DNA of 8,498 nt, from NCBI GenBank assembly GCA_030620005.1, contig JAUXAJ010000233.1:1-8498 (forward strand). Direction: 5' to 3'. The notes under the pieces were generated by a model. The model worked only from the letters and a program-made list of their open reading frames with translations. It made no database searches and was not told the origin of the DNA. Position numbers and translations under genes: made by a program. The first letter of the stretch is position 1. Each line of letters begins with the position of its first letter. This document shows, one piece after another, positions 2,973 through 6,225 of the stretch. This DNA is from Promethearchaeota archaeon (GTDB lineage Archaea > Asgardarchaeota > Lokiarchaeia > Sigynarchaeales > SOKP01).

Positions 2973-3026
2973 AATTATCAATTTTAAATTAATATTATCA
3001 GAAATTATAAAAAGAGTGGAATTAAC

Positions 3027-3527
3027 ACGTCTGAATTCGTAAGGGAATATAATTTTAAAAAAGCACCAAAAGAAATCACTTACCTTAATGGAGAACCCTT
3101 TAAGTTAACTGCTGATTTTGTGTTTTATCACAATAAGAATAGCTTTAGAAAGGAACTGAATCGTCTTCAATATCTTTTTCGAGATTATTTAAAAAATCCG
3201 CTTGTTGCTTCTGGTATTAGGGACACGTATATTGATATAGATTATACAAATGAATTTTTAATCGTGTTATTTACTAATGCAGAAGTCGTTAAAGAAACTA
3301 ATAACATATTAAAAAATTACTTGAGCGTGGATATTAATCCTGGTTGTTATTATATTGAAACCACTTCAAAATACGTGCTACTTTTAACAAAGGATATGGA
3401 TGGAATAACCTCCGGCATAGAAATGATGGAAAATTTCTTGAAACAAACTTTAGATGACTACTTTAATCAAAAATGTTTTGACGATTACATAAAAATTCGA
3501 CCTTTTAAAATGCTTGGTTGTTCTTAA
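3027..3527 (+). CDS. GH20-like accessory domain, truncated, no standard start
   Basis: The frame codes for 166 residues, and protein-like sequence clearly extends upstream of the first GTG (3120): SEFVREYNFKKAPKEITYLN precedes it. No ATG, GTG or TTG lies in frame between the upstream stop and 3120. The best-placed start is ACG at 3027, 7 bases after GAGTGG; this looks like a former ATG. ATT 3021, or a frameshift from GTG 3016, are alternatives. The C-terminal half (GCYYIETTSKYVLLLTKDMD, then GITSGIEMMENFLKQTL and DYIKIRPFKMLG) resembles the zincin-like domain that precedes the TIM barrel in GH20 hexosaminidases and GH84-type enzymes. The chain stops just where the first barrel strand should begin, so no catalytic residues remain. 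I read it as a remnant of a larger glycosidase, or a stand-alone carbohydrate-binding domain. The family assignment rests on motif resemblance only. Confidence 0.55.
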   Translation, partial: TSEFVREYNFKKAPKEITYLNGEPFKLTADFVFYHNKNSFRKELNRLQYLFRDYLKNPLVASGIRDTYIDIDYTNEFLIVLFTNAEVVKETNNILKNYLSVDINPGCYYIETTSKYVLLLTKDMDGITSGIEMMENFLKQTLDDYFNQKCFDDYIKIRPFKMLGCS

Positions 3528-3737: not shown

Positions 3738-4820
3738 TTATCTTTTATAACGCCACGCTTTTTGCTTTTTTAACTTATAAGCCTTTTTGGCGTACTCCTT
3801 CACCATGCGATGGGTGTTAAAGAAAGCTGCCAAAGATATCGCGTTTTTTTGCCTGAAAATCCACTCGTCGTGGTCAAGATATATTGGGATCATTTCATTT
3901 TCAAAGATCTCGTAGATATAATTAGAATCAACGTCCCATTTGTTTTCTATTGCTGTAGGATCTGAATCGTCAGGCCCAATGGCCCATCCCGCCATTGGAT
4001 TCATTTTGTAACCTTCAAGCCACCATCCATCTAAAACACTAAAATTTAAAACGCCATTCAACGCTGCTTTCATGCCTGAAGTGCCGGAAGCCTCGCGATA
4101 TCTATTTGGCGTGTTCAACCAGACATCAACTCCTGAAACTAGCATGTGAGAAAGATCCATGTTGTAATTCTCCATTAGTACAACCTTAACGCCATATTTC
4201 TGGTATAAATATTCACCCGCTTCATAAATTTTTTTAATGCTATCCTTTCCCATTTGATCCTTCGGGTGGGCTTTCCCAGCAAAAATAAACTGGATTTTCC
4301 CCTTGCAAATCTTTCCCAATCGATCTATATCGTGAAATAAGAGTGTTGCTCTCTTATACGTAGCGAACCTGCGTGCAAATCCTACTGTTAATAATTCTTC
4401 GTCTAACAAATTCCAACTATGACCCTTTTGATAACTTATCAAGTTAAATTTATTTTCAATGTGAGCGTCGAATAGCTCCAAATCGTCAAGTTCTATCGCA
4501 TTTTGAAGTATGGAGGGATTGGACCTCCAATTTGGCCATTTTCTGGCAAATAATTTTCTAATTGGTTTGGAAACCCAGAACGGCAGGTGCACTCCATTAG
4601 TAATATAATCGATTTCGTAACCAGGGAACATTTTACTTGAAATATCACCGTGCTTCTTTGCCACGCCGTTTCTATATCTTGAAAGATTCATCGCTAAACA
4701 TGTCATGTTCAATTGCCCGTTATCGTCACCAAGCTTTCTGATTTCTTGAGGAAAGCGATCGTTAAATACTTTATCTACCAAACCTTGATCAAAACGGTCG
4801 TGTCCTGCTGGAACTGGCGT
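3738..4820 (-). CDS. glgP: Alpha-glucan phosphorylase, exon 2 (catalytic half)
   Basis: This is the C-terminal part (residues 214-573) of a GT35 phosphorylase, which releases glucose 1-phosphate from glycogen or maltodextrin using pyridoxal phosphate. Read from 4820 it begins TPVPAGHDRFDQGLVDK, the continuation of the THTPVPAG motif. Further motifs are TNGVH (287-291), VGFARRFATYKR (359-370), FAGKAHPKD (393-401), GVDVWLNTP (443-451), EASGTSGMK (456-464, with the expected pyridoxal-phosphate Lys464), LDGWWLEGY (476-484) and GWAIG (491-495). A start at TTG 4781 would make a separate protein lacking the N-terminal domain, and no ribosome binding site or promoter precedes it. The spliced protein of 573 residues matches the short archaeal form of the family, without the long N-terminal extension of some bacterial homologues. 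Every catalytic motif is intact, which argues against a pseudogene. Confidence 0.9.
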   Translation of the reverse strand, partial: TPVPAGHDRFDQGLVDKVFNDRFPQEIRKLGDDNGQLNMTCLAMNLSRYRNGVAKKHGDISSKMFPGYEIDYITNGVHLPFWVSKPIRKLFARKWPNWRSNPSILQNAIELDDLELFDAHIENKFNLISYQKGHSWNLLDEELLTVGFARRFATYKRATLLFHDIDRLGKICKGKIQFIFAGKAHPKDQMGKDSIKKIYEAGEYLYQKYGVKVVLMENYNMDLSHMLVSGVDVWLNTPNRYREASGTSGMKAALNGVLNFSVLDGWWLEGYKMNPMAGWAIGPDDSDPTAIENKWDVDSNYIYEIFENEMIPIYLDHDEWIFRQKNAISLAAFFNTHRMVKEYAKKAYKLKKQKAWRYKR

Positions 4821-4850
4821 TTACGCCCTTTTAGGAGATGCCTAAAAAGT
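4821..4850 (-). other. Probable 30-nt bulge-helix-bulge intron in glgP mRNA
   Basis: The insert separates the His codon (4851-4853) from the Thr codon (4818-4820) of THTPVPAG, adds exactly ten codons and contains in-frame TAG (4842-4844) and TAA (4821-4823). The minus-strand RNA can form a 9-bp intron stem, 4841-4849 with 4827-4835 (one G-U pair, loop CATCT). Next come a 3-nt bulge ATA (4850-4852), a 4-bp helix ACGC (4853-4856) with GCGU (4823-4826), and a 3-nt bulge AAA (4820-4822). Cutting after the second base of each bulge excises precisely 4821-4850 and joins CAT to ACG. This is the substrate shape of the archaeal tRNA-splicing endonuclease. The outer exon helix is weak: two G-C pairs (4857-4819, 4858-4818), then mismatches. 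Boundaries could slide by two bases because AC occurs at both ends, with the same product. Confidence 0.8.
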
Positions 4851-5489
4851 ATGCGTCGTAAACACGACTTTTTCTTTGACTTTTTCTATTTCTCCCAATT
4901 CATTGTATAGTTCAAGAGTTGCAAAAGCGCCGTGCCCCTCGTTAATATGGTACGTTTCTATGTTATTATAGCCTAATGAGTTTAAGAGTTTTACTCCACC
5001 TATACCTAAAACCATTTCTTGCACTATTCTATTCCATCGGCTTGTAGAATCGTAAAGGGAATCAGTCATGTATTTCATCCATAATTCGTTTCCTTCCACG
5101 TCCGTTGTTAGTAAGTATATGGGAATTATATGATCAGACTGCCCTATAACATTATACGTCCAAGCAGAGACTTTAATATCCTTATCTTCAATTTTGACTG
5201 AAATTGGCTTATCAACTCGATCGAACTCGTAGTAAAAATTCCATTCAATCTTCTTTTCTCTTTGCTCTCCTGCTTCGTTAAACAATTGATAGAAATATCC
5301 CGAGGAATAACATAAACAAATTCCTACCATTGGTATTTCCAAATCTGCTGCAGATCTTACGGTATCTCCCGAAAGTACTCCCAAGCCTCCACTATAAGTC
5401 GGTATGTTAGAATCGAGTGCTATCTCCATTGAGATATAGGCTATACTAGTATCTTCATTCAGATTTTGCTTAAATTCCATCTTTTTCAC
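4851..5489 (-). CDS. glgP: Alpha-glucan phosphorylase, exon 1 (N-terminal half)
   Basis: This holds residues 1-213 of the phosphorylase. Visible family motifs are IAYISMEIALD (16-26), YSGGLGVLSGD (32-42), GYFYQ (64-68), HINEGHGAF (181-189) and VVFTTH (208-213), in the order of the short GT35 type. Without splicing the frame stops at TAG 4842-4844 after only two more codons, giving a 215-residue protein with no pyridoxal-phosphate site. The frame opens at GTG 5489, but ATG at 5480 is the more likely start: it leaves MEFKQNLNEDTSIAYISME, and a weak GTGA precedes it. The promoter probably lies in the AT-rich spacer, with the palindrome at 5525-5538 or an AT-rich stretch near 5503-5515 as the TATA element. 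A T11 run separates it from the hydrolase gene upstream, so it appears to be its own transcription unit. Storage-glucan breakdown is the expected role. Confidence 0.9.
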
Positions 5490-5595: not shown

Positions 5596-6225
5596 TTATA
5601 TTTTCAACGATTTATCCGTTAAAATCTCCACTTTCACGTTAGGATCTTTCTTATTCATCAATTCCCGGAAACCTGATAAATCTTTATCCCAATTATGCAT
5701 GGGTACGACGATTTCAGGTTTGAAATCTAAAACAGCTGAGCAAGATTCTTCAAAGTCCATGGTATATGTCCCACCGCAAGGCATTAATGCTACAGTAATG
5801 TCTTTTAAATCTTTCATTTCTGGTATTCTCTCAGTATCTCCCGCGTGGTAAATCCGTTTACCTTCTGTTTCAATTATGGTGCCTGACCAATTGTTTTCTT
5901 TAGGGTGTGTAGGCTTACTTATCGTGTATGATGGTACTAATGTAATTTTAATATCATCTACTTCATGACTTTCACCAAATTTCAAGCCCTTTCCATTGTA
6001 CTTGCTCAATCTTGATGATATGCTAGTAGGTCCTAGTAAAATGGTCCCATCTTTCATTAAATTTTTAATTGAACGGTTATCGAAATGATCGCCATGCGTG
6101 TGGCTTGAAACAATAATGTCGGCTTTTTCTTCGTCTTTACCAATTTTATAGGGATCTAAATATATGACCTTGCCACTTTCAGTAACTATTTTAAACGCAG
6201 CGTGTCCTTTCCAAAAAATTTCCAA
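5596..6225 (-). CDS. MBL-fold metal-dependent hydrolase (UlaG/UPF0173-like)
   Basis: This 209-residue cytosolic protein has the metallo-beta-lactamase fold of the COG2220 group. Metal ligands are visible: SHTHGDH with His42, His44, Asp46 and His47; HAGDT with Asp130; and VPMHNW with His177. The pattern HPKENNWSGTIIE (107-119) followed by the GDT motif and ALMPCGGTYTMDFEES (146-161) is typical of the family, whose length is near 210-230. The usual PMHYG near the C-terminus is PMHNWD here. The physiological substrate is unknown; family members hydrolyse phosphoesters or lactones. The start is TTG at 6225, 5 bases after AAGGTGG. An ATG at 6229 is in another frame and stops after 12 codons. It lies 96 bases after the MIT-TPR gene on the same strand, so co-transcription is possible but not shown. 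Confidence 0.88.
   Translation of the reverse strand: MEIFWKGHAAFKIVTESGKVIYLDPYKIGKDEEKADIIVSSHTHGDHFDNRSIKNLMKDGTILLGPTSISSRLSKYNGKGLKFGESHEVDDIKITLVPSYTISKPTHPKENNWSGTIIETEGKRIYHAGDTERIPEMKDLKDITVALMPCGGTYTMDFEESCSAVLDFKPEIVVPMHNWDKDLSGFRELMNKKDPNVKVEILTDKSLKI

Follow-up and report, generated by a model that had tools for sequence, protein, structure and literature searches.

The closest described relatives of the insert reported here are the introns of cbf5 in Desulfurococcales and Sulfolobales, which likewise place a bulge-helix-bulge (BHB) motif in a protein gene and are 16-44 bp in length (PMC2738675). In the excerpted text of that 2009 paper, other protein-gene introns are predicted and splicing is confirmed for none but cbf5, in accord with the initial annotation, which had taken cbf5 as the established case; according to a 2020 study, no other such BHB intron had been reported apart from that of the cbf5 mRNA (PMC7714728). 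The cbf5 intron is located at the catalytic Asp codon, its predicted cuts fall between the second and third bulge bases, its motifs are often relaxed, and its distribution is patchy with losses (PMC2738675, excerpted); the Asgard inserts described below are alike in lying in conserved motifs, in the placing of the predicted cuts, in relaxed motifs and in patchiness. The cbf5 introns are, however, from Crenarchaeota, in one gene, and have a reported spliced cDNA (PMC2738675, excerpted), whereas the present inserts are from Asgard archaea, in three other genes, near-constant in size at 29-30 nt, and putative. Asgard Cbf5 itself (TruB_N) has no internal stop among the matches listed.

The BHB introns of archaeal tRNAs and rRNAs have the same predicted structure and enzymes (PMC6379350, PMC7714728), but the Asgard inserts are in a protein-coding frame at positions set by conserved protein motifs. 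A known mRNA cut by EndA is cut in its leader, whereas the Asgard inserts are inside the reading frame. The putative 12-bp introns of the rudivirus SIRV1 (Peng 2004, as described in PMC2738675) are also very short and in archaeal protein genes, with splicing putative; they are possibly translated, whereas the Asgard inserts carry stops or shift the frame. The kind of intron is thus known, whereas, as far as we have seen, its host genes here, its phylum, its nearly uniform size and its occurrence in a ligase gene are new. In the literature searched, with preprints and most subscription journals outside the search, we recognised no BHB introns in protein genes for Asgard archaea, for glgP or for rtcB, and to that extent the initial view that the glgP case is undescribed holds.

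The window, by which we mean the whole stretch of 8,498 nucleotides analysed, resembles Lokiarchaeota. Its GT35 glgP frame (5489-3738, minus strand) is open apart from 4850-4821, where, as claimed initially, 30 bases (ACTTTTTAGGCATCTCCTAAAAGGGCGTAA on the minus strand) with in-frame TAG and TAA split the gene between the CAT (His) and ACG (Thr) codons of TTH|TPVPAG. Once these bases are taken out, the frame runs through 573 codons and reads ...VVFTTHTPVPAGHDRF... at the join. The start may be the ATG at 5480. The joined GlgP matches full-length Promethearchaeota proteins with identities of up to 82%, which is also its best identity to Lokiarchaeota proteins. Mean identity to relatives is 0.783 for exon 2 versus 0.775 for exon 1 (56 locus rows, with some genes present twice), and the same comparison for a relative, L021, gives 0.792 after and 0.802 before the site (54 rows); because exon 2 is as conserved as exon 1, glgP appears to be a living gene. 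We consider it very probable, on the evidence set out below, that the 30 bases are an intron of the glgP mRNA which is cut by the archaeal tRNA-splicing endonuclease EndA at a BHB motif and sealed by the RNA ligase RtcB, and that it is one of a scattered group of similarly laid-out 29-30-base inserts in Asgard protein genes.

Table 1. Positions in the window of the glgP exons, the predicted intron and its structural elements, and the neighbouring UPF0173 gene
Feature	Position	Strand	Basis or remark
glgP exon 1, N-terminal part of GT35 alpha-glucan phosphorylase	4851..5489	-	PF00343, E 8.6e-07; frame open to insert
Outer helix, 5' strand CG	4857..4858	-	Pairs with 4818-4819; sequence, BHB scan
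Central helix, exon strand ACGC	4853..4856	-	Pairs with 4823-4826; fold, BHB scan
5' bulge AT|A, predicted cut 4851/4850	4850..4852	-	Fold, BHB scan
Predicted BHB intron, 30 bases, in-frame TAG and TAA	4821..4850	-	Sequence, fold, scan, shuffles
Inner stem, 5' arm CTTTTTAGG	4841..4849	-	Fold
Loop CATCT	4836..4840	-	Fold
Inner stem, 3' arm CCTAAAAGG	4827..4835	-	Fold
Central helix, intron strand GCGT	4823..4826	-	Fold, BHB scan
3' bulge AA|A, predicted cut 4821/4820	4820..4822	-	BHB scan
Outer helix, 3' strand CG	4818..4819	-	BHB scan
glgP exon 2	3738..4820	-	PF00343, E 1e-20; conservation equal to exon 1
UPF0173 metallo-hydrolase gene	5596..6225	-	Uninterrupted in window (PMHNWDKD), near glgP
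Junction peptides that splicing would give			glgP TTHTPVPAGHDR; UPF0173 PMHNWGKDL

The predicted fold of the glgP insert agrees with that first proposed, i.e. a 9-bp stem with a 5-nt loop, an ATA bulge, an ACGC/GCGU helix, an AAA bulge and a 2-bp outer helix, such that two 3-nt bulges, one on each strand, flank a 4-bp helix (ACGC/GCGT in the DNA) at the exon-intron borders, and cuts after the second base of each bulge would remove exactly 30 bases and restore TTHTPVPAG. The weak point conceded from the outset, an outer helix of two pairs, stands. The minimum-energy fold of the 48-mer (-12.3 kcal/mol, z -2.76; none of 200 shuffles was equally stable) reproduces the stem together with the ATA bulge and central helix but lacks the outer pairs; for a 68-nt stretch the minimum-energy fold is a competing one (-17.4), and in a 91-nt stretch the stem and central helix reappear. 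A scan of both strands of the window for BHB-like motifs (lengths 18-100, all central pairs formed, 5 bp or longer in the inner stem, 2 or longer in the outer helix) returned 51, among which the glgP insert ranks first and is the only one whose inner stem reaches 9 bp, its ends being identical to those of the insert.

Alignment with homologues, proposed initially as a check, finds the insert absent from all 57 locus rows spanning the site (duplicates included), and as DNA it is known from one contig. A protein search with the exon-1 frame gave 39 proteins at E 1e-50 or better, including P0125, a metagenome protein (source lgn) from another contig that is 74% identical to the window's GlgP and that ends in ...IVFTTHTF, i.e. 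at the same place and with the same THTF tail as the unspliced window frame (...VVFTTHTF). The remaining short proteins among the exon-1 matches end at other places or at contig ends, and a further protein search gave mostly full-length proteins. Viral contigs searched with P0125 yielded no relative, and the glgP intron-stem pattern, with up to three mismatches, had three matches in 83 genomes versus four for a reversed control.

Inserts of like size and layout occur at three further sites in two other Asgard genes. The first of these genes, recognised by comparing ORFs among Loki loci, encodes the UPF0173 hydrolase, in which 30 bases with a conserved stop follow the His codon of PMHNW (site PMH(N)^W) in five (G045, G039, G037, G050 and G034) of 83 Loki-class genomes, 73 of which gave any match. 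The layout equals that of glgP (1 + 9 + 5 + 9 + 4 + 2 bases), with bulges TA|A, replaced by TA|G in a single copy, and AA|A and an outer helix CCAA/TTGG (CCGA/TTGG in one copy); the central helix is relaxed, having three of four pairs in every copy, and is absent from the four minimum-energy folds examined. The predicted cuts would restore PMHNW, after which only 31-33 codons follow. In a FastTree phylogeny of 45 sequences with the insert removed, filled genes occupy two separate branches: that of G034 pairs with the empty gene of G003 at a support of 0.99, and the remaining four share a clade of seven with insert-free G002, G008 and G007 (inner supports 0.62-0.93). Over 751 aligned bases G034 and G003 are 91% identical and the sole internal gap is the 30-base insert; this sister pair is a filled and an empty site. 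Between the G034 insert and the inserts of the other clade identity is 73-83%, as against 58-71% for the adjoining exon stretches (L231-L235), a difference that may reflect either lateral movement or strong constraint. Two rows of UPF0173 paralogues (G076:C19 and G037:C24) also contain a stop.

The other gene is that for RtcB, a match to which is found in 207 of 227 Asgard genomes, with inserts at two sites, GY^DINCG (site 1, at least two of the 227 genomes) and PD^AHQ (site 2, at least five); no further such insert was seen among the RtcB matches listed, some of those genes being partial. At site 1 of G001, the genome whose GlgP is closest to that of the window, 29 bases split GVGY|DINCG and shift the frame. 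The BHB there comprises a TTGG/CCAA central helix, AT|A and AC|A bulges, an inner stem of 9 bp and a single outer pair; the predicted cuts would restore GGA TAC GAT ATT AAC (GVGYDINCG); G063 has the same insert, with the TTGG/CCAA helix in both copies. At site 2 (PD|AHQGYGF), 30 bases with a stop are present in G081, G159, G160, G161 and G162, and the predicted cuts would restore PDAHQGYGF. The central helix is CCCG/CGGG in three of these five and CCCG/AGGG with one G.A in two, and the inner stems range from 9-10 bp down to poor in G160. We regard site 2 as a relaxed case because the minimum-energy folds of all five differ from a BHB, having a long exon-exon helix in which the 3' side carries a large loop where a 3-nt bulge would be expected. 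The exons at site 2 (L265-L268, L287) can pair mutually over ~10 bp, and in this pairing CCCTG/CAGGG alternates with CCTTG/CAAGG, the changes being synonymous on both sides.

The initial judgement that the match of fold, cuts and frame in glgP is hard to explain by chance is borne out by a test in which the real exons were kept fixed and the insert was shuffled in 200,000 trials, none of which reached the observed score for glgP. The test was applied to ten of the 14 inserts, four UPF0173 copies being left out; for six inserts no trial out of 200,000 reached the score, for three others 2, 4 and 4 trials did so, and the G160 insert was below the scoring threshold. A scan for frame-joining BHB motifs (14-120 nt, 2.85 Mb) gave 565 matches, the first five being inserts described here and L159 being twelfth; in a second scan (20-60 nt, 3.07 Mb) the window insert headed the 582 matches, and that in RtcB of G001 came twelfth among those listed. 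Both sets include loci chosen for carrying these genes, with ~2 Mb of G045 unselected, and in that unselected part the UPF0173 insert is the only convincing case. The strict BHB test missed the UPF0173 insert because it demanded four central pairs. A census of interrupted ORFs (1,686 ORFs against 156 loci, 2.2 Mb) gave 22 candidate places, seven of which are rows of the UPF0173 insert.

A covariance model (R1) trained on five UPF0173 inserts and run over 83 genomes ranked six UPF0173 copies first (E 1.2e-15 or better), five of which had served to train it, and weak matches after them; inspection of 22 of the 25 weak-match loci revealed no convincing intron, three weak matches are antisense in RtcB, and two frame joins (L245 and L257) have the look of neighbouring genes. 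On the glgP insert, R1 scored 9.6 bits (E 0.68), second in the window. R1 thus does not pick out the glgP insert, and a shared origin of the inserts is unsupported. Covariation is too sparse to count: each of two alignments contains a single pair with changes in both partners, and 233 and 236 of 500 shuffles, respectively, did as well, so that covariation is not claimed as significant.

The proposal of a BHB intron in glgP is thus supported by the stop of P0125, by the three further sites, by the filled and empty sister pair, and by the presence of candidate enzyme genes, which had also been suggested as a check. In nine near genomes, the window's own genome not being among them, EndA-family genes (PF01974) are present in all nine, with two or more copies in eight, and RtcB is present in eight. 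Of the EndA-family copies in G001, one contains an HSSF-HV stretch and in the other the His is missing, as expected for an (alpha-beta)2 enzyme of broad specificity. In the excerpted text of PMC6379350, (alpha-beta)2 EndA has broad specificity, and only the (alpha-beta)2 and epsilon-2 forms remove relaxed motifs efficiently. ARAGORN, run on 2 Mb of G045, flagged an intron in ten of only 17 tRNA calls.

On this proposal, the glgP pre-mRNA would fold into a BHB inside the cell, EndA would cut after the second base of each bulge, RtcB would join the exons, and the enzyme would be made from the spliced message only. Alignments to solved structures (for GlgP via its relative P0012) place the four sites in the conserved motifs HTPVPAGHD, PMHN, GYDINCG and DAHQGYGF, which are linked to catalysis. 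All four being strongly conserved, unspliced message should not give normal enzyme; at these motifs only exact removal of the insert would do so, and messages with these inserts are likely to be spliced before translation. Where RtcB itself bears an insert, making the ligase would depend on pre-existing ligase. The patchiness of the inserts points to gain and exact loss; if we may speculate, reverse splicing may have been at work, or replacement of the gene sequence by a copy of spliced RNA.

A different account, which we consider improbable, is programmed translational bypassing, in which ribosomes would hop a hairpin on uncut RNA, as occurs with phage T4 gene 60 and the byp elements of yeast mitochondria. 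The inserts are indeed short hairpins with stops, the junction codons AAT/AAT match in five of six UPF0173 copies, and in glgP ACT and ACG, both Thr codons, are 30 bases apart. Bypassing is nonetheless disfavoured because take-off and landing codons match in only five of the 14 inserts, all of these in UPF0173, and differ in the other nine, i.e. glgP, one UPF0173 copy (AGT/AAT), both RtcB site-1 copies and all five RtcB site-2 copies. RtcB site 1 would moreover require a 29-nt hop, and a hop needs no exon-intron pairing at the exact boundary.

The patchy distribution, and the finding that the G034 insert is more alike those of the other clade than are its adjoining exons, would also be compatible with mobile or chance insertions of hairpins, with the host gene expressed as two polypeptides or silent. 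Such insertions would, however, leave the exon-intron pairing unexplained; the breaks are inside conserved motifs, only 31-33 codons remain after the UPF0173 insert, and glgP exon 2 is conserved like exon 1, so that we give this account little credence, somewhat less than bypassing. Less credible still is an assembly error, a sequencing error or a decaying gene: all of the sources are metagenome assemblies, the glgP insert is seen as DNA in a single contig, and some other GlgP proteins end early at different places, but P0125, 74% identical, comes from another contig, the other inserts recur at the same base in several genomes, and the 573-codon frame is otherwise open. Self-splicing group I or II introns, which have a catalytic core of some hundred bases or more, and inteins are rejected for inserts of 29-30 nt, which are too short and have stops or a frameshift instead of open protein-splicing domains.

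If these inserts are indeed removed by BHB splicing, gene prediction in these Asgard genomes goes wrong precisely where they occur. Four candidate sites spread over three unrelated genes, two of the sites being in an RNA ligase, would imply a self-dependent ligase loop, and filled and empty sites in close relatives would allow tests of intron gain and loss in archaea regarded as the closest to eukaryotes. The wider proposition, that Asgard archaea are a second lineage with protein-gene introns, i.e. dispersed BHB mRNA introns of 29-30 nt, gained and lost in catalytic motifs of core enzymes, spread by reverse splicing, and with RtcB dependent on its own splicing, is one on which we are evenly divided.

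Several other observations were made on these genes. P0140, a metagenome GlgP from a 1562-base contig, ends in ...CVFTTHTGI, i.e. at the insert site of the window; its best listed relatives are full-length Thermoplasmatales proteins (95% identical), and it is perhaps another intron outside Asgard archaea. P0140, together with P0127 and P0128, which end elsewhere, may represent further interrupted GlgPs. The glgP of G047 (L062) has two TGA codons in an otherwise open frame, both where the window has Arg, either from CGA to TGA changes or from assembly error; L062 and G116, with single mid-frame stops and no insert, were set aside as candidates. GlgP, a small gene of unknown function and Dus are neighbours in relatives too. 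The small gene, conserved beside glgP, is at 3000-3527 (plus strand) in the window; at the window's ACG (Thr), homologues in the 11 loci examined have their initial Met, and the window lacks any in-frame ATG, GTG or TTG before 3120, the alternatives being an ACG start, a sequencing error or an upstream exon. Finally, six Asgard genomes (G113, G115, G091, G112, G111 and G114; loci L272, L273, L275, L277, L284 and L288) have a large in-frame open insert in RtcB, with open frames of 776-999 aa, near family-model residues 44-50, where the 29-base insert also falls; it has the appearance of an intein sitting in that same conserved motif.
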